A stretch of 33,989 nt of DNA from a virus. The stretch spans positions 1 through 33,989 of the IMG/VR virus record IMGVR_UViG_3300021197_001126. One strand, written 5' to 3'. The translations under genes and the position numbers were made by a program. A model generated the notes under the pieces. That model did not search any database, had not been told where the DNA came from, and saw only the letters and a program-made list of their open reading frames with translations. The stretch's first letter is position 1; each line of letters begins with the position of its first letter. Below are positions 10,879 through 17,979 of this stretch, piece by piece.

Positions 10879-11184
10879 CTATACTTTCGTTAGGGGTTCT
10901 GTCTTGTTGCGAGCATTCAGTTCTTCGCGATGCGTGTCGATCAACAACTGAACGACTGCGATTTGCCTGTGCCAAAAAACATCCCCGCTCGCGATTCTGT
11001 CAGCAGTCTGCGAGATCATTGCTTCAAGGCGTTCGATCTCCGATTGTAAATAGACTGCATCTGACTCAGTGTCTGCATACCCTGCGATCTCGGTCTGCTT
11101 CCAAGAACACGCAGCCAACGCGAACACTACTCGCTTGAGAGATTGCTTTTCAGTGTCTGTGAAGTCGCTTGTAACTCGTTTCAT
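10879..11184 (-). CDS. Hypothetical early protein downstream of a hammerhead
   Basis: 101 residues from the ATG at 11184, set by AGGA eight bases upstream; everything upstream in frame belongs to a hammerhead ribozyme and intergenic sequence. The protein is helical: TEKQSLKRVVFALAACSWKQ then a long amphipathic coiled-coil-like region (LQSEIERLEAMISQTADRI). No motif or family recognised. Its mRNA 5' end would be generated by ribozyme cleavage at 11237/11236, giving a leader of about 52 bases. Confidence 0.58.
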   Translation of the reverse strand: MKRVTSDFTDTEKQSLKRVVFALAACSWKQTEIAGYADTESDAVYLQSEIERLEAMISQTADRIASGDVFWHRQIAVVQLLIDTHREELNARNKTEPLTKV

Positions 11185-11199
11185 GTCTCTATCCTGTTG

Positions 11200-11270
11200 G
11201 TAATTCTCATCAGTATTGCGAAACCACTTCGCAACAGACGGCACGCAGCCAACGTGCCGTTTCGATTCAC
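11200..11270 (-). ncRNA. Hammerhead ribozyme, type II (HHR3)
   Basis: Reading the minus strand: stem II 5' arm GUGAAUC (11270-11264), GAA plus A15.1 (11263-11260), stem III CGGCACG/CGUGCCG with a 7-base loop (11259-11239), U16.1 and cleavage-site C17 (11238, 11237; GUC), stem I UGUUGCGAA with UUCGCAAUA (about 9 pairs, 11236-11214), invariant CUGAUGA (11213-11207), and stem II 3' arm GAAUUAC (11206-11200). All core nucleotides match the consensus. Stem II has six pairs and one A-A mismatch. It lies in the 95-base gap before the 11184 gene. Confidence 0.93.
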
Positions 11271-11279
11271 AGGTTGATG

Positions 11280-12221
11280 CTACGCCGCAGCGAACGGTAC
11301 TGCATCGAAAGCGTAATCCCAAGCCTTGTCACACTCCTTGTCGGCAACACCGAGGAACGACTTCGTAACAGCGTCTAGTTTCTTGCCGTCACGAGTCTTG
11401 CGTTTGTCGTGCTGCACGAATCCTGTCACGCTGTTGACTAGCTCCCAGAGGTTGCACTTCACAACGTCCGCTGATGTGTTGCCAATCTTGTTTCGCTCCT
11501 TGAGCAAACGCGTCATCATTGACTGCAACTTCTCTTTGTGCCGCCTGTGCTTTGCAGCAGTATCAGCCGCACTCGGCTCAGGGTACAAGCTGTTATAGAA
11601 ATCGGCAGCACGAATCTCTGTCTCTCGGAAGTGATTAGCGGCTTCAACGATGCTGTCGAACCTCGCGGACAATGACTGCCACTGTTGTACTGTCTCATCG
11701 AAGTTGTCGCGGAAGTTACCGACATGCCTCAAGCTAACAGTCGTGTGTTCTACCCTTCGCATCATCTGCATGTTGGAACACGCATCTCGGTACATGCCGC
11801 ACTGTGCGGTGAATGAACCTCCGTAGTTCGCGTTGATGATGAACTTCGGCCAAAGGGTATCAAGCGGACTCGCAGACAACGCCTTGCGGTATCCGATAGT
11901 CGGCTGGACTGCAACACGATGCCCTGTATTCGGCTTGAAGAATGCACTGATCTTGACCTGATCGAGTTCGAGATCCAGACCGGCAGCTACAGTCTCGGAC
12001 AGCACTGCTACGTCCTCGCGGGTATGCGGAATGTAACCTTGCTTGACTGTGCATCGCATCCAATCCTTCCTGTCCTCTGCATCATCGAAGCACAAGCCGT
12101 AGTGTGGACTCGGAAGGTTATCAGGACCGGACAACGGCACCTTGATAACCTCGCGTGTGAACTCTTTGGCAAGGTGATCGCGAACAGCCTGCTGTACTGA
12201 GTTCAATGCTGTAGTATTCAT
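11280..12221 (-). CDS. DUF932 phage/plasmid-like protein
   Basis: 313 residues from the ATG at 12221 (AAGGA ten bases upstream). It carries the DUF932 hallmarks: FIINANYGGSFTAQ, then GMYRDACSN (Cys148) and SLRHVGNF (Arg165-His166), followed by a long helical region and NLWELVNSVTGFVQHDKR near the C-terminus (the usual N.W...N.vT...H). DUF932 proteins are widespread in phages and plasmids next to recombination genes; their biochemical function is unsettled. A near-palindrome GATCTTTAAGGATC covers the ribosome-binding site, and a hammerhead lies just upstream. Confidence 0.8.
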   Translation of the reverse strand: MNTTALNSVQQAVRDHLAKEFTREVIKVPLSGPDNLPSPHYGLCFDDAEDRKDWMRCTVKQGYIPHTREDVAVLSETVAAGLDLELDQVKISAFFKPNTGHRVAVQPTIGYRKALSASPLDTLWPKFIINANYGGSFTAQCGMYRDACSNMQMMRRVEHTTVSLRHVGNFRDNFDETVQQWQSLSARFDSIVEAANHFRETEIRAADFYNSLYPEPSAADTAAKHRRHKEKLQSMMTRLLKERNKIGNTSADVVKCNLWELVNSVTGFVQHDKRKTRDGKKLDAVTKSFLGVADKECDKAWDYAFDAVPFAAA

Positions 12222-12227
12222 AGAGTT

Positions 12228-12241
12228 GATCCTTAAAGATC
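12228..12241 (-). promoter_or_regulatory. Near-palindrome over the ribosome-binding site of the DUF932 gene
   Basis: GATC-TTTAAG-GATC on the minus strand, containing the AAGGA that serves the ATG at 12221. It could be a protein operator or a small RNA hairpin gating translation after ribozyme cleavage upstream. Only the symmetry is seen; the function is inferred. Confidence 0.35.
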
Positions 12242-12256
12242 GAGTAGTTGTGTCCT

Positions 12257-12311
12257 GTCTCATCAGTGCGGGTCGGACGTTAGCCCCGCAGACGCCCGAA
12301 GGCGTTTCGAC
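12257..12311 (-). ncRNA. Hammerhead ribozyme, type II (HHR1)
   Basis: Minus strand: stem II 5' arm GUC (12311-12309), GAA plus A15.1 (12308-12305), stem III CGCC-UUCG-GGCG (12304-12293, closed by a stable UUCG tetraloop), U16.1 (12292), C17 (12291; cleavage site GUC), stem I UGCGGG (12290-12285) with CCCGCA (12272-12267) around a 12-base loop, CUGAUGA (12266-12260), stem II 3' arm GAC (12259-12257). All invariant nucleotides are present and every stem is perfectly paired. It fills the gap between the 12315 stop and the DUF932 gene. Confidence 0.95.
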
Positions 12312-12314
12312 TCA

Positions 12315-12779
12315 CTAGCTCCCCTGCGGGACACGCCTGTGGATCTGACCGCAATGTATCCACTGCGGTTGGTACTCAGTGCCACGTTCTCGAACCTTGA
12401 ACATGCCTGTGTCATCACGAACTTCAACGATCTCCCACTCTGTTGCGTCCGGCAGACCGTTCAGCACTACGATCTGACCGATGTGATTCGACCTACGACC
12501 TTGATCTTCTGCAACAAGGGATTCAATGGTATCGAAGTGCGTGTCTTTGAGCATCAGCCTGCGACCTCCGTGCCTTACAAAGTGTGATGATGCGTTACTG
12601 AACTGCAAAGCGTATACCCGCAGCCATCTTTTCCTGCCCTCGACCTGAACGCGATACCTCGTCGGGCTACCTGTCGGTGAGGTGTACCCGAACTGATCGA
12701 GCTTGGGACGTGGTGGTGTACCCTTCGTCGTTGCCTTGACGATAGGTAAGTCGAGGTAGGTTACTGCTACATTACTCAT
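12315..12779 (-). CDS. Hypothetical early protein (154 aa)
   Basis: Start at 12779 (MSNVAV) preferred over 12791. 154 residues, basic, beta-rich by inspection: a Lys/Pro-rich N-terminus, then FGYTSPTGSPTRYRVQVEGRKRW in two strands, a central FVRHGGRRLML and a C-terminal small-barrel-like part (HIGQIVVLNG, EWEIVEVRDDTG). No family recognised; it might bind nucleic acid. The stop codon lies three bases before hammerhead HHR1, so the ribozyme cuts immediately behind this gene. Confidence 0.55.
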   Translation of the reverse strand: MSNVAVTYLDLPIVKATTKGTPPRPKLDQFGYTSPTGSPTRYRVQVEGRKRWLRVYALQFSNASSHFVRHGGRRLMLKDTHFDTIESLVAEDQGRRSNHIGQIVVLNGLPDATEWEIVEVRDDTGMFKVRERGTEYQPQWIHCGQIHRRVPQGS

Positions 12780-12827
12780 AGTTTGTCTCATCTGTAAAAG
12801 GTTGTAGTGAAAGTATCAACGTCTGTT

Positions 12828-13598
12828 CTACTCTTGCGACTTCTCAACTTCGTTCAGGATCTCAAGGATTGGATCGTTGTTCGCATTGGACACTACTTCG
12901 TTGATGTCCTCTGCTTCCTCGCACTCGACTACTGTCTGCTCTGCATCAGATACTTCGGTGAACGACTCGCTGCTGAAAAACATCTTGCTTGATAGCTCTG
13001 CGAATCGCTTGCTGAGTTCCTGTCGCGTGATGCAGTCTGCGATCTTTCGATCAATCTGCGACTCGATTCTGCCTCCCATGTCGTTATCGTCCATGACTTG
13101 CTCGATGATCTCTGAAATCTCATCAGTCATGTCGGAGGGGTCAACATGCTCGCTGATCTTCTCTTGCCAATCAACGTGATCGTCAATGTCGAACTCATCA
13201 AGTCGATCAGTAATCATGTCACTGACACCTGAGTCGTAGTTCAGCCAATGATCGAGGTCGATGTAGTCCGACATGTCGATAACCTCAAGCACGTTAGTAA
13301 CCTGATCGCACATGTCGTAGTTTTGAAGAACGTCCTCGACGATACTCGTAAAGTCATAGTCGTTCACAGCGTCCTCAATGTCCTGCGATATGTCATAACT
13401 ATCCATCGCGGAGGTAACAGCAGTGTCGATATGCTCTGGCATGTCATCGAGCCTGTGACCGAAACCTTCAATGTCGTCCTCCTGTCGTAGCTGTGTTCTC
13501 TCGATCTGCTTGAGCAGCTTGTGTTGCTTCTGCATGTCAACGGTGCAAAGGAAACGGATGTTGCTTGCGAGAGTCTTGATGCTTGATACGATCTTCAT
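12828..13598 (-). CDS. Acidic repetitive early protein (256 aa)
   Basis: 256 residues, strikingly acidic. It repeats a unit of about 20-30 residues with DMSD/DDYD-type cores, for example DISQDIEDAVNDYD, SIVEDVLQNYDM and DMSDYIDLDHW, between residues 60 and 160. The N-terminus is basic and helical (KIVSSIKTLASNIRFL); the tail is Glu-rich. Such acidic repeat proteins can mimic DNA or act as scaffolds, but nothing specific is recognised. SD CAGGAAA precedes the ATG at 13598. Hammerhead HHR2 lies in its 5' leader. Confidence 0.6.
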   Translation of the reverse strand: MKIVSSIKTLASNIRFLCTVDMQKQHKLLKQIERTQLRQEDDIEGFGHRLDDMPEHIDTAVTSAMDSYDISQDIEDAVNDYDFTSIVEDVLQNYDMCDQVTNVLEVIDMSDYIDLDHWLNYDSGVSDMITDRLDEFDIDDHVDWQEKISEHVDPSDMTDEISEIIEQVMDDNDMGGRIESQIDRKIADCITRQELSKRFAELSSKMFFSSESFTEVSDAEQTVVECEEAEDINEVVSNANNDPILEILNEVEKSQE

Positions 13599-13632
13599 TG
13601 TGTTTTCCTGTTGGAAGAATTGTTATTGGCTT

Positions 13633-13686
13633 GTCTCATCAGAGGACAGGTAGCCAACCTGCCCTGACGCCCGCAGGCGTTTCGAC
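13633..13686 (-). ncRNA. Hammerhead ribozyme, type II (HHR2)
   Basis: Minus strand: stem II 5' arm GUC (13686-13684), GAA plus A15.1 (13683-13680), stem III CGCC-UGCG-GGCG (13679-13668), U16.1 (13667), C17 (13666; GUC site), stem I AGGGCAGG (13665-13658) with CCUGUCCU (13650-13643), eight pairs with one G-U, loop UUGGCUA, CUGAUGA (13642-13636), stem II 3' arm GAC (13635-13633). The ribozyme begins on the base after the upstream stop codon (TAG, 13689-13687). Stem I differs in sequence from HHR1 but keeps pairing. Confidence 0.95.
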
Positions 13687-13923
13687 CTAGCATCCGAACG
13701 AGTACTCTTTCGTCTGCTGCACAATCAAATACTCTTTCGGGTCAAAGTCGTACATGCTCTTGTCGGATGACAGGCACAGGTACTTGACCTTGAGATCCAT
13801 TTGCTCTGCGAACTGTCTTGCGAACTGCATTGCCTCCTGCCGTTTGCCTCGTATGTGGAACCACTCGAACTGTGGGTGTGAGGTCCATCTGCTGTCGCCT
13901 GCGTAGTGAATCATATAGAACAT
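13687..13923 (-). CDS. Small hypothetical early protein (78 aa)
   Basis: 78 residues from the ATG at 13923, identified by the CACCGGAGA leader motif at 13932-13940. It starts MFYMIHYAGDSRW and has one helix (KRQEAMQFARQFAEQM) between strands: a small alpha/beta protein with aromatic residues. No domain recognised. The stop codon abuts hammerhead HHR2 directly, so cleavage leaves this mRNA with a short structured 3' end. Confidence 0.55.
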   Translation of the reverse strand: MFYMIHYAGDSRWTSHPQFEWFHIRGKRQEAMQFARQFAEQMDLKVKYLCLSSDKSMYDFDPKEYLIVQQTKEYSFGC

Positions 13924-13972
13924 TGTGTTTTTCTCCGGTGTAAGTAGTGAAAGTGAAAGTGTGCTGCGTGTC

Positions 13973-14266
13973 CTACAGGTCAGCAGGTTCTTCGGCTGCG
14001 TAGAATGTGTCGTCAAGTTCAATAGCCTTGTCGCCGAGTAGGTCACCGAGTGTGTCGATGAACTCCAACTGCTTGCACTCACGACTGTCACCGTAGTGAT
14101 GAAGCATCGACTCTTCGAACTCTTCGTGCTTGTCCATCGCTGCGTCGAGCAGGATGTTGCTGATCTTCTGTAGCTGCTGTCGTGCGTGTTCTGTATCGCC
14201 TTGTGCTGCGAGGCAAGTTGCGATTGCGTTTGCGACGCCTGTTGCTGTGTATCGTGTGTTAGCCAT
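13973..14266 (-). CDS. Small hypothetical early protein (97 aa)
   Basis: First gene of the early operon. Start at 14266 (MANTRYTATG) chosen for AGGA eight bases upstream; the longer in-frame extension runs through hammerhead HHR4 and is not credible. 97 residues, helical, acidic C-terminal half (KHEEFEESML, FIDTLGDLLGDKAIELDD). No motif or family recognised. After ribozyme cleavage at 14327/14326 its leader would be about 60 bases. Confidence 0.55.
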   Translation of the reverse strand: MANTRYTATGVANAIATCLAAQGDTEHARQQLQKISNILLDAAMDKHEEFEESMLHHYGDSRECKQLEFIDTLGDLLGDKAIELDDTFYAAEEPADL

Positions 14267-14281
14267 GTCTCTGTTCCTGTT

Positions 14282-14333
14282 ATCGGTTTCGAAGTTACTC
14301 ATCAGGCATGACTACTAATGTCATGCGACCGAC
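14282..14333 (-). ncRNA. Hammerhead ribozyme, type III (HHR4)
   Basis: Minus strand: stem III 5' arm UCGGU (14332-14328), C17 (14327; site GUC), stem I GCAUGAC (14326-14320) perfectly paired with GUCAUGC (14312-14306) around AUUAGUA, CUGAUGA (14305-14299), a very short stem II region GUAACUUC (14298-14291), GAAA (14290-14287), and stem III 3' arm CCGA (14286-14283), extended by a U-G pair. The order of parts is permuted relative to the other three (stem III open). All core bases are present; stem II has only its G-C closing pair, a weakness. Confidence 0.85.
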
Positions 14334-14590
14334 CGCGTTCACTCACACAGGGACTTGTCCTGTGAAAGTTACTTACTAGGTCAGGTGTGTTGCGTCTCGG
14401 CTCGACTGACTTGCGGTCAGCCTGCGTCGTTGGCTCTATCTGAACGATCTCTTCGTAGCTATCAGGTTCCTTCGTGATTCTCTGACTCGTTCTAGGAACA
14501 GCTAAGCGGCTATGCGGCTTGTGTTCTTCGTTCGTAGCTCAGAGGGGTCAACACTGAAAGTACTGTCCTTGAGATCCCGCCTCGTCCGGC

Positions 14591-14617
14591 GGTAGGTCGG
14601 GGTTCGAAAGACTTACC
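14591..14617. repeat. Hairpin with T-loop-like apex
   Basis: GGTAGGTC at 14591-14598 pairs with GACTTACC at 14610-14617 (eight pairs, one G-T); the 11-base loop contains GGTTCGAAA, like a tRNA T-loop. A plausible element of a structured RNA in the 14.3-15.1 kb gap. No full tRNA can be drawn around it. Confidence 0.5.
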
Positions 14618-14862
14618 CGCAACACTCATACGATGTTTGTGTTCCCCGCTCCGCATCGACTAGGTTCCAGCTTGCGACTTGGTTGTGTCTCGCAGGGGGG
14701 TTCGCTGAATGACTCTGATTGAATTTGAAACTGAAAGGCTGTGCGTTTCGTTTCGAACTCGCTCTCGTAGTTCAGAAAGTTAATGACCCCCGCGATAGGG
14801 GAACTCCGGACGACTCAGATCACTGCCGGATGCGTAAAACCAAATTGAGAAAGATCAGTGTT

Positions 14863-14881
14863 GTGAGGTAGCTAACCTCAC
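14863..14881. repeat. Short perfect hairpin
   Basis: GTGAGGT/ACCTCAC with a five-base AGCTA loop. Next to it lie two copies of CAATTAGCCCCC (14897-14908 and 14921-14932) 24 bases apart. Candidate operator or iteron-like signals upstream of the early operon. Confidence 0.45.
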
Positions 14882-15094
14882 TAACTGAATTAGAAACAAT
14901 TAGCCCCCCCCTTACCACAGCAATTAGCCCCCTAGTTCGATTTTGTTTCCCCCTCGCGGTACAGCACCATTGTGGGGCGGGAATTATTTTTAGAAATCGA
15001 AAGATTTATTTTCCGGCTACCCTAAAACGAGCCTATTTTCGTAAGCGACGAGGGGCCGAGGGGGGAACGCAGACTGCGTTCAAGAAGGTTACTT

Positions 15095-15418
15095 TCAGCG
15101 ACGACGATTCGGTTTTGTTGCTGCGTCTTGAACCGCTGTTTGTTTCGAAGCGTTCCTAACTTTGTTGCAAGCTCGTTGAATCAACAACTTGACCCAAGCT
15201 CTGCAAGCCGCTTCCGGTATTGTCTGCAACGACTTGTGAAGGTATCTGCGTTGAACCATAAAGTGTTGCACGAATCGTTCCATGTCTTGTTCTACACCGT
15301 CCGGTCCAAGGTCATCCATTTCAGCACGCAGTTTTTCACAACCACATGCAGAACGCTTTTCGACTTTGATCCATTCAGGAATCCAAGATTTCAAAAGTGT
15401 TCCAACGCCGTTGTTCAT
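15095..15418 (-). CDS. Small hypothetical protein after the tail genes (107 aa)
   Basis: 107 residues from the ATG at 15418, which overlaps the stop of the large tail protein (TGATG). It has CGCEKLRAEMDDLGPDGVEQ near residue 25, then a helical body (CRAWVKLLIQRACNKVRNASKQ) and a basic tail. The CxC...M...G pattern looks familiar from small proteins following tail genes in planctomycete phages, where it may bind metal; function unknown. It is the last gene of the structural operon. Confidence 0.58.
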   Translation of the reverse strand: MNNGVGTLLKSWIPEWIKVEKRSACGCEKLRAEMDDLGPDGVEQDMERFVQHFMVQRRYLHKSLQTIPEAACRAWVKLLIQRACNKVRNASKQTAVQDAATKPNRRR

Positions 15419-17979
15419 CAAGGAGTTCCCCCGATGAAACAACAAGTCGCATCGACGTTGCACTCATCCCAAATTTCAGTTGCGGGATCTTGACCATTCA
15501 AAGGTTCAACTCCTTGACCTAATGAACTACCGAAGGATTCATCGCAACAGTTCGTCATGCCGGACGATAATAGCTTCCAACCACTAACTTCAAATCCATT
15601 GACAGTCGCCGGACTTGCAGTTTGCTCAATGTAACATTCCCCTTCTGCGTCCTGCTTCAATTCCCAAGTCACTGTTCCTGCGACATCCGGCAGTCCGGGC
15701 GAAGTCCAAACACCAGTGCAAGTCACTTGGCAGTTCGCAGACATTTCACAATCGTCACTTACGAATAACGATTCAGCAAAGTTCGGGTCTGCTCCCTGTC
15801 CAGTTTTGATCGTTGATGGAGTCAAGATAACGCCATCGCAATTCTCACAGATGTCACATGCAACACACGGGTCGGGACAAGCAGAACCATCACCAAGGTA
15901 TGTGCCTCCTGCTCCCTCGCAATCTGCTTGAGTTTGATCTGGCGTGTATGTGCCATCATAGTTTTCGCAGCAACCCGTTAACGGAGGTGGATCATGGCAC
16001 GGAGTACAAACATCGATGCACGGTTCGTTCTGACCGGGTGCTGTCCCGCAAACATAAACGACTGCTGTTGTCGGGCAATACAAATATGGATGCTCTGGAT
16101 CGTAAGTGAATCCCGTTACTACGTTGACCGCTTGTGTACCAATTGAAATTGAGTTGTCAATGATCTCCGGTGAACAATCTGGGTCAGCCCCCTCCTTGAT
16201 ACCGAACGCTGAAAACGTTTGAAGTTCTTTGTATGTGATCGTGCAGCCAGACGCAGACAATAGATTGTCAGCCATTTCAGTTGATGCCACAGCCTTGACT
16301 TCAACCGCAGTACCGTACAGCGACGAGTTCGTTGAGATCACGTTATACATTTGCTCGTTCGGATCCCAGAACGCCCAACCCGGTTCTCCTTGCGTTAGAC
16401 AACCCGTAGACAAATTCGGTGCAGTGCGGATTCTATCTTGCAGTTCTACGCCATCTGGGAAGTATGCAAAGCTCGGATCTTCACCTTCTGCATACTCTGA
16501 TCCGTAGTTCCACTTGTCTGCCCCTCCTTCTGACGTCTCAAACGTGACTGCGATCCAGCGAGCCAACGGCAGTTCGACCTCCGAGATCACCCACTGCGGT
16601 GGAGCATCCCCTGCACCGAAGTACGGAGTCACATCGTTGCAGGCATCTTCCGGTCGCTGTGGTGTGGTGTTCTTTTCGATGATGCACCACGAACCACGCT
16701 TGGCCGAAAACCTATGGGGGTTCGTAGCAAACACTTTGTACTTGTAGATCGAAGCGATCTCTGGATCAGTAACGTCCTCCCAGCTTTCGCAGTAGTCCGT
16801 GTTCGGCCAACGTGATGCGAACGAGGTAGCGTCATTGAAGTACAACCAGCAACCGTCATCGCCTGTTGGCATCTGTCCTGTTGGTCTGCTCTTCGCAGAA
16901 CCGCTACCGCTCGCTCCTGATTCGTAGACGTAGACCTTCATACGTTCTACCGTCTGCGTACATTGCTCGACTTCGTATCGAGGGTAGTCTCCTGTTGATG
17001 GCGGGTCTGTGTTTGGATCCTCGGTCCAGATTGCATACCCAATGGAACCTCCGCATGGGAAGTCACTCACAGCAGCAGGAGTGAAGTTCATATTCGTGTA
17101 GCCGATCGCGTGAGCGAATAGCTTACGTGGATCATTGACAACTACTTGATCCCCGCGAGTCAGTCCTGTGTTGCCGAAGGTATCAAGAACATTTGCGAGG
17201 GCCTGTCCTGTGTCGTTGAATTTGTTTTCAAGAACGAAGCGAACTCGTTTAGCTTGACCACCTCCCCCTCCGGTAGCACAGTTGTCGATTGCCCAGAACG
17301 CACCGTCAGCAAACATGCAGTAGCCAGTATGCCCAACAGCTAACGACTCAGGCTTGCAGTCCATCTCGAAGTTAATCGTTGTTGGACTACTGCTGAACTG
17401 TGCATCGTACAGAGTGTGAATGTGTCCTGTGCCTACCGAACCTCCGGTGTAGGTTTCCGTTAGCTTGTACAGCCACAGTTGTTGTACGTCACCGAGATGA
17501 ACTACAGCCTTGTCGGTACCTACAAGATTCAAGATCCTGTAGCCCGAACTGCCACGCTTCATCCCCTGCGGGTAGTCAGGATCTGGAAACGCATAGTCAC
17601 CTACTCCGTCTGCGAGTTCGACTATCGCACCACCGTTGTAAGCGAACGGACCTATCTCGTTTTGCAAAACAGGTCGCTCTGCAACGACTAGCTTGTGACA
17701 TAGCTCAGGCCAAACTACTTCCGTAACACTCAGGACGTGACTCGGTGCGATCTCGTACAGGTCATCATCGCCAAGGAACGCATCGACTGCCCAGACTTCC
17801 ATCGTGTCAATGTCTTGATGTGCCTTGCACTGCACAACGACCTTGTTGATCAGCGACACACTTGTCCCTGCTCCTGCATCGTTGTTCGGCAGTCGATCAA
17901 TAACACGATTCCACAGTTCAGCTTTCAGCGGCTGACCTGATACCACCTTGAGATTTGAATTGTCCTTTGCGTTCTTCAT
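15418..17979 (-). CDS. Large tail/baseplate-type structural protein with Cys-rich module
   Basis: 853 residues. The N-terminal ~350 residues look like a beta-rich tail-tip protein. The region from about residue 630 is Cys-rich, with CxxC-type clusters (CIDVCTPCHDPPP, CCENYDGTYT, DICENCDG) and a unit TPDQTQADCEGAGGTYLGDGSAC, typical in style of disulfide-knotted repeats in planctomycete surface proteins. The last ~110 residues are again beta-like. It follows the tape measure and one further tail gene, so hub, tip or fibre is the likely role. The Cys module may mediate host contact or rigidity outside the cell. No known family. Confidence 0.65.
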   Translation of the reverse strand: MKNAKDNSNLKVVSGQPLKAELWNRVIDRLPNNDAGAGTSVSLINKVVVQCKAHQDIDTMEVWAVDAFLGDDDLYEIAPSHVLSVTEVVWPELCHKLVVAERPVLQNEIGPFAYNGGAIVELADGVGDYAFPDPDYPQGMKRGSSGYRILNLVGTDKAVVHLGDVQQLWLYKLTETYTGGSVGTGHIHTLYDAQFSSSPTTINFEMDCKPESLAVGHTGYCMFADGAFWAIDNCATGGGGGQAKRVRFVLENKFNDTGQALANVLDTFGNTGLTRGDQVVVNDPRKLFAHAIGYTNMNFTPAAVSDFPCGGSIGYAIWTEDPNTDPPSTGDYPRYEVEQCTQTVERMKVYVYESGASGSGSAKSRPTGQMPTGDDGCWLYFNDATSFASRWPNTDYCESWEDVTDPEIASIYKYKVFATNPHRFSAKRGSWCIIEKNTTPQRPEDACNDVTPYFGAGDAPPQWVISEVELPLARWIAVTFETSEGGADKWNYGSEYAEGEDPSFAYFPDGVELQDRIRTAPNLSTGCLTQGEPGWAFWDPNEQMYNVISTNSSLYGTAVEVKAVASTEMADNLLSASGCTITYKELQTFSAFGIKEGADPDCSPEIIDNSISIGTQAVNVVTGFTYDPEHPYLYCPTTAVVYVCGTAPGQNEPCIDVCTPCHDPPPLTGCCENYDGTYTPDQTQADCEGAGGTYLGDGSACPDPCVACDICENCDGVILTPSTIKTGQGADPNFAESLFVSDDCEMSANCQVTCTGVWTSPGLPDVAGTVTWELKQDAEGECYIEQTASPATVNGFEVSGWKLLSSGMTNCCDESFGSSLGQGVEPLNGQDPATEIWDECNVDATCCFIGGTP

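Follow-up and report, generated by a model that had tools for sequence, protein, structure and literature searches.

Hammerhead ribozymes along a phage operon, a structured leader RNA and the hairpins that precede hammerhead cut sites

The window (the whole stretch of DNA analyzed here, a single viral record of 33,989 bases) contains four hammerhead ribozymes on its minus strand, and hairpins are a regular feature of the RNA that precedes the cut sites of such ribozymes in viral contigs. We consider it probable, although well short of certain, that cleavage at these four sites splits one operon and that the hairpin-bearing 3' ends left on the upstream RNAs are the outcome under selection. One transcript would start upstream of a 555-nt structured RNA and run through the early genes, and four co-transcriptional cuts would divide it into the leader RNA, two two-gene units, a DUF932 mRNA and the rest (acetyltransferase, exonuclease and RecT). 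By hammerhead chemistry, the upstream piece of each cut would end in a 2',3'-cyclic phosphate and the downstream piece would start with a 5'-OH. The hairpin retained by the upstream RNA would be stem III at the three type II elements, and a separate, covarying hairpin (14341-14369) before the type III element. Each unit would gain a terminator-like, exonuclease-resistant end, and presumably stability, with the polymerase not being stopped; the downstream pieces would also begin with a stem I hairpin.

We scanned both strands of the window with a strict descriptor that required the full core, stems I and III of at least 4 bp and an NUH site, and that allowed all three topologies. Exactly four hammerheads were recovered in the 33,989 bases, all on the minus strand, against a chance expectation of 0.05 per window as estimated from 100 Markov-shuffled windows. 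The original prediction had placed four complete hammerheads on this strand, with cuts at 14327, 13666, 12291 and 11237; the descriptor returned these four and none besides, with the same cuts. Three adopt the type II topology (HH1, HH2 and HH3) and one the type III topology (HH4), as follows:

14282-14333, minus strand: HH4, type III, cut after C14327 (descriptor)
13633-13686, minus strand: HH3, type II, cut after 13666 (descriptor and RF02276, 27.1 bits)
12257-12311, minus strand: HH2, type II, cut after 12291 (descriptor and RF02276, 32.6 bits)
11205-11265 (Rfam span 11195-11267), minus strand: HH1, type II, cut after 11237 (descriptor and RF02276, 41.7 bits)

All four possess the invariant core (CUGANGA...GAAA), A15.1-U16.1 and an NUH cleavage site, with three helices arranged around the core (stems I and III of 5-10 bp, stem II of 1-3 bp, and only 1 bp in HH4). 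Each also displays a tertiary contact between stems I and II, formed by loop I-tail or loop I-loop II pairing: the loop I-tail pseudoknot is UUGGC/GCCAA in HH3 and GUCC/GGAC in HH2, while the loop I-loop II pairing of HH4 spans 3 bp, and 4 bp in the related phage G2 (see below). Weak stems II are documented in active hammerheads, and pseudoknots are likewise a known feature. The Rfam covariance search that had been proposed as a check recovered three of the four elements. The three type II elements matched RF02276 (E of 3e-6, 7e-4 and 0.02 on 4.7 kb for HH1, HH2 and HH3, respectively), with HH1 over the gathering score of 37 and HH2 and HH3 under it, and the type III element HH4 had no Rfam match.

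Every gene in the window lies on the minus strand, in the order ParB-like, glycosyltransferases, terminase, portal, capsid and tail, the leader, the hammerhead units, acetyltransferase, exonuclease and RecT. We infer the early status of the operon from its recombination genes. The genes that flank the four hammerheads are:

13973-14266, minus strand: 97-aa gene, first of unit 1 (ORF table; 63% and 41% identity in relatives)
13687-13923, minus strand: 78-aa gene, last of unit 1 (stop codon abuts HH3)
12828-13598, minus strand: 256-aa gene, first of unit 2 (ORF table; comparison with relatives)
12315-12779, minus strand: 154-aa gene, last of unit 2 (ORF table; comparison with relatives)
11280-12221, minus strand: DUF932 protein of 313 aa (Pfam PF06067, E 5e-14)
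10879-11184, minus strand: 101-aa gene, first of unit 4 (ORF table; no tblastn match in G2)

The 13687-13923 gene has its stop codon where HH3 begins, HH2 begins 3 nt past the stop at 12315 and HH1 begins 14 nt past the DUF932 stop. The DUF932 gene, which lies between HH2 and HH1, would become a single-gene mRNA. All four hammerheads had been described as occupying intergenic gaps. This holds for the three type II elements, but 14282-14333 is not between two genes and instead forms the end of a ~750-nt non-coding leader. No sigma-70 promoter-like site was found within 13900-15500.

Two phages, G1 of 33.1 kb and G2 of 34.2 kb, are related to this one: they share the gene order of the window and have capsid proteins 98% and 89% identical to its own, respectively. 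All four hammerheads are kept in G1, and three are intact in G2, before the same genes despite several extra ORFs between HH4 and HH3; in both relatives hammerheads precede the 256-aa and DUF932 genes while surrounding genes turn over. The G2 copy of HH1 (L127 17430-17497) carries a C3>U change in its core, and G2 lacks a match to the 101-aa gene that follows HH1 in the window, a coincidence that may reflect decay of a ribozyme that has lost its gene. Covariation in related phages had been named as a check by the original prediction, and stems and pseudoknots do covary across the three phages. According to the pair tables, compensatory changes affect stem I and the loop I-loop II contact of HH4, the loop I-tail pseudoknot of HH3 (a UA>UG>AU pair across relatives), and both stem I and the loop I-tail pseudoknot of HH2 (in G2). 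Moreover, the type III core of G2 recurs in the unrelated phages L426/L452 (97.6% over 42 bases), where stem III differs from that of G2 yet is complementary. Taken together, conservation, covariation and the recurring type III core confirm the four elements as real, functional-looking hammerheads, as judged from sequence. A search for further relatives by capsid and terminase yielded only two fragments, both with head/tail genes, one of which extends into a different early region that has an integrase but no hammerhead, and a host search turned up no genome contig with a relative of the capsid protein. Dulem virus 39 (L003; 9525-11780, 18320-19525), a gut phage, possesses three type II hammerheads, one of them 82% identical to HH3, together with a gene for an RtcB ligase that could join hammerhead-left ends.

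The four elements lie on the same strand at unit boundaries, and two relatives conserve them together with the genes downstream; the best reading of the array is therefore that a single polycistronic RNA is cut, in agreement with the original prediction. The further claim that serial use as operon punctuation was undescribed did not survive: Perreault et al. 2011 (PMC3088659) had described clustered phage hammerheads and proposed the same processing into short mRNAs. As in the clusters of that text, several hammerheads that share a strand border single genes or short blocks of genes in the window array, at least two of them lying between genes of one transcription unit, and the type II elements have loop I-tail pseudoknots and a stem II of 1-3 bp. 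In contrast to those clusters, it mixes a type III element at the leader with three type II elements, and its type III element would cut off a large conserved structured RNA. The hammerhead of haloviruses HF1/HF2, as presented in the same text, likewise occupies an early-gene position before the first gene of a polycistronic transcript, and a 5' end was mapped no more than 3 nt from its cut, but it is a single element 13 nt before a start codon and not part of an array. The searched text of this source contains no stop-codon spacing or 3'-hairpin rule, and a 2017 review (PMC6155905) counted the role of prokaryotic hammerheads among the field's open questions. Thus, hammerhead arrays were already known, and what goes beyond prior work is twofold: leader trimming and the survey of hairpins at the cuts. 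Synthetic insulators of the RiboJ type likewise use a hammerhead to define mRNA ends in an operon; they differ in that they are engineered and consist of one 5' element to which a hairpin has been added.

The gene-free ~750 nt upstream of HH4 contain the following features:

14327-14882, minus strand: structured leader RNA of ~555 nt (alignment, covariation and folding z; 5' end approximate)
14341-14369, minus strand: hairpin near the leader 3' end (compensatory pairs in the alignment fold)
14473-14642, minus strand: leader domain used for covariance model R1

The stretch from 14882 to the 14327 cut is conserved among the relatives (556, 555 and 555 nt), with counterparts at L127 11669-12223 and L125 18418-18972. 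The leader alignment folded with a z of -6.6 relative to column shuffles, compared to -1.6 to +0.9 for coding controls (nine pairs). Because the reverse complement scored similarly (z of -5.7), the strand of the leader was assigned by the hammerhead. Thirty-three pairs in the fold of the 964-column alignment displayed compensatory changes, including four consecutive pairs (columns 840-843/853-856) in the hairpin at 14341-14369, whose loop, ACAAGUC, is constant and whose stem changes from CACAGG/CCUGUG to CGAGAG/CUCUCG in G2. The leader regions of the three phages contain no shared ORF. As the leader is conserved, structured and ends at the HH4 cut, HH4 would make its 3' end, and trimming of a conserved structured leader is a putative function that the original prediction missed. 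The leader gave no real match in Rfam 15 up to E 10, GOLLD and ROOL included, and no relatives in phage records or, by blastn, in the fetched loci; model R1 found none in 81 sources beyond the three phages. GOLLD and ROOL, phage-linked large ornate RNAs (PMC12286853), resemble the leader in being large structured non-coding RNAs of phages and bacteria, and differ from it in that no Rfam match and no common motif connect them. We regard the hammerhead-trimmed leader as a candidate new large structured phage RNA.

Several other observations concern the leader region. Model R1 detected a second, weaker copy of the 3' domain upstream in G2 (11702-11850; E 9e-4 over 801 kb), such that the G2 leader holds two related domains, which suggests an internal duplication; in the window only a 25-nt fragment of the second copy is seen (14728-14752). 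Direct repeats GGGGGCTAATTG and GGGGGGGGCTAATTG, operator- or promoter-like in appearance, lie just upstream of the structured leader (~14895-14945, minus strand). Long non-coding leaders also occur before a type III hammerhead in L444/L363/L381/L216 and in L365/L389, and their alignments folded with z of -6.9 and -3.5, respectively; a partly coding comparison group (L157/L457/L188), however, also scored -3.7.

The leader might alternatively be a cis-acting antitermination or regulatory RNA instead of a free non-coding RNA, with HH4 merely removing it after it has acted. We regard this as a real possibility, albeit not the likelier one. Its position as the leader of the presumed early operon is suited to such a role, as are its near-repeat hairpin domains and the repeated GGGGGCTAATTG upstream, and nothing decisive speaks against it; a length of ~555 nt is nevertheless long for a put- or nut-type element.

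The reading that we prefer, in which the hairpin-ended upstream RNA is the selected product, draws on a survey of viral contigs. Pattern scans recovered 97 arrays in 70 independent clusters, the longest comprising nine hammerheads (L435; a type III followed by eight type II); given this abundance and the 2011 report, the window array belongs to a known kind. Both strands were used in only 2 of 62 loci with at least two hammerheads, and in 166 of 190 non-redundant cases the ribozyme and its downstream gene shared a strand. We measured spacing for 349 non-redundant viral hammerheads, with genes called by a simple longest-ORF rule. Types I and II start a median of 1-3 nt past the upstream stop (57-60% within 5 nt), as opposed to a median of 32 nt (3% within 5 nt) for type III. 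A rule that the type III element leads every mixed array was discarded: 6 of 7 arrays followed it in the discovery set (P 0.009), but only 5 of 9 did so in an independent set from which truncated contigs were excluded (P 0.22), leaving a trend only. In the type I arrays of L032, L036, L057, L069 and L056, stem I strands are near-identical among the hammerheads of one phage, such that cleavage or joining of fragments in trans is conceivable.

Which ends carry structure depends on topology. After a type II cut, the RNA upstream of it has stem III and the RNA downstream of it has stem I. A type I cut gives a stem III end upstream and a bare end downstream, whereas a type III cut places stem I on the downstream RNA and gives the upstream RNA no stem. 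Should a hairpin be required on the upstream RNA, one would be expected within the type III gap. All 25 gene-gene type III hammerheads of the non-redundant set had a separate hairpin ahead of the cut (median z of -4.0, versus +0.3 and -0.4 for controls; P below 1e-8), and perfect stems of at least 6 bp were present in 96% of gene-gene type III gaps compared to 45% of ordinary gaps. A GUGUC-GACAC stem recurs in about nine of these 25 viral hairpins, and those that have it may be homologous. Where type III elements lack a close upstream gene, the hairpin is mostly absent. What follows the hairpin in these 25 sequences is the stem III strand, usually with CUGUC at its end, and not a U-run; we therefore rejected intrinsic terminators as the identity of these hairpins. 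The last 45 nt before the cut had similar median energies in types I, II and III (-15.9, -14.0 and -14.4 kcal/mol, respectively), compared to -6.7 kcal/mol at ordinary stops, whereas type I elements create new 5' ends without structure (median, -4.2 kcal/mol), unlike those of types II and III, making the 3' hairpin the shared outcome. Because stem III is needed for catalysis in types I and II, only the type III hairpin constitutes independent evidence. Within the window, stem III provides HH3 and HH2 with short hairpins of 5 bp, and folding of the 45-nt 3' ends at these elements is not distinct from shuffles (z of 0.7 and 0.0, respectively). Stop-codon spacing and the extra type III hairpin nonetheless point to one selected product, the hairpin-ended upstream RNA. 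More tentatively, and with rather less confidence than we attach to the division of this operon, we suggest that phage hammerheads are in general 3'-end formers that may provide hairpin-capped ends without termination, the first one here maturing an undescribed 555-nt RNA.

The same unstructured type I ends bear on 5'-end control, according to which the new 5'-OH and the stem I hairpin would remove the leader, shield the RNA from RNase E or free the ribosome binding site. All four cuts in the window would place a stem I hairpin at the new 5' end, the hammerheads are followed within tens of bases by a ribosome binding site and a start codon, and the hammerhead-to-start distance is 23-28 nt in all types. 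However, type I is common in phage arrays, so that a 5' hairpin is no shared requirement, and we consider this explanation unlikely.

Rejoining or circularization of the fragments, by a reverse ribozyme reaction or an RtcB-type ligase, would produce spliced or circular RNAs. Hammerheads can ligate, the sharing of stem I sequence between elements is frequent in type I arrays, and Dulem virus 39, with its HH3-like element, encodes RtcB; but RtcB was found in just 1 of 25 hammerhead records and is absent from both relatives of the phage, leading us to reject RtcB-based religation, and Perreault et al. (PMC3088659) sought such products and detected none. We thus view rejoining as highly improbable. 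It is equally hard to credit that the elements have no function for the phage, whether as remnants or as selfish RNA cassettes that recombination has spread, for although a near-identical type III core occurs in unrelated phages, the stems differ among the four copies, stems and pseudoknots carry compensatory changes across three phages, and placement is fixed relative to stop and start codons.

We put the hairpin rule to a test on type III hammerheads of cellular genomes, for which we had set in advance a median z below -2 as support and above -1 as refutation. The outcome counts against 3'-end formation as the selected outcome: the median z was -0.77 (n=12), with no difference from control gaps (P = 0.28). 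A post hoc measure of perfect stems gave P = 0.02, with stems of at least 5 bp in 10 of 12 cases. In view of the failed preset z and the weak post hoc result, the hairpin rule has good support in viral contigs, but its validity beyond them is uncertain. The cellular-genome type III hammerheads were often from Patescibacteria assemblies (L471, L472, L475, L489, L545, L550 and others), and one of these, L545, carries three in succession.
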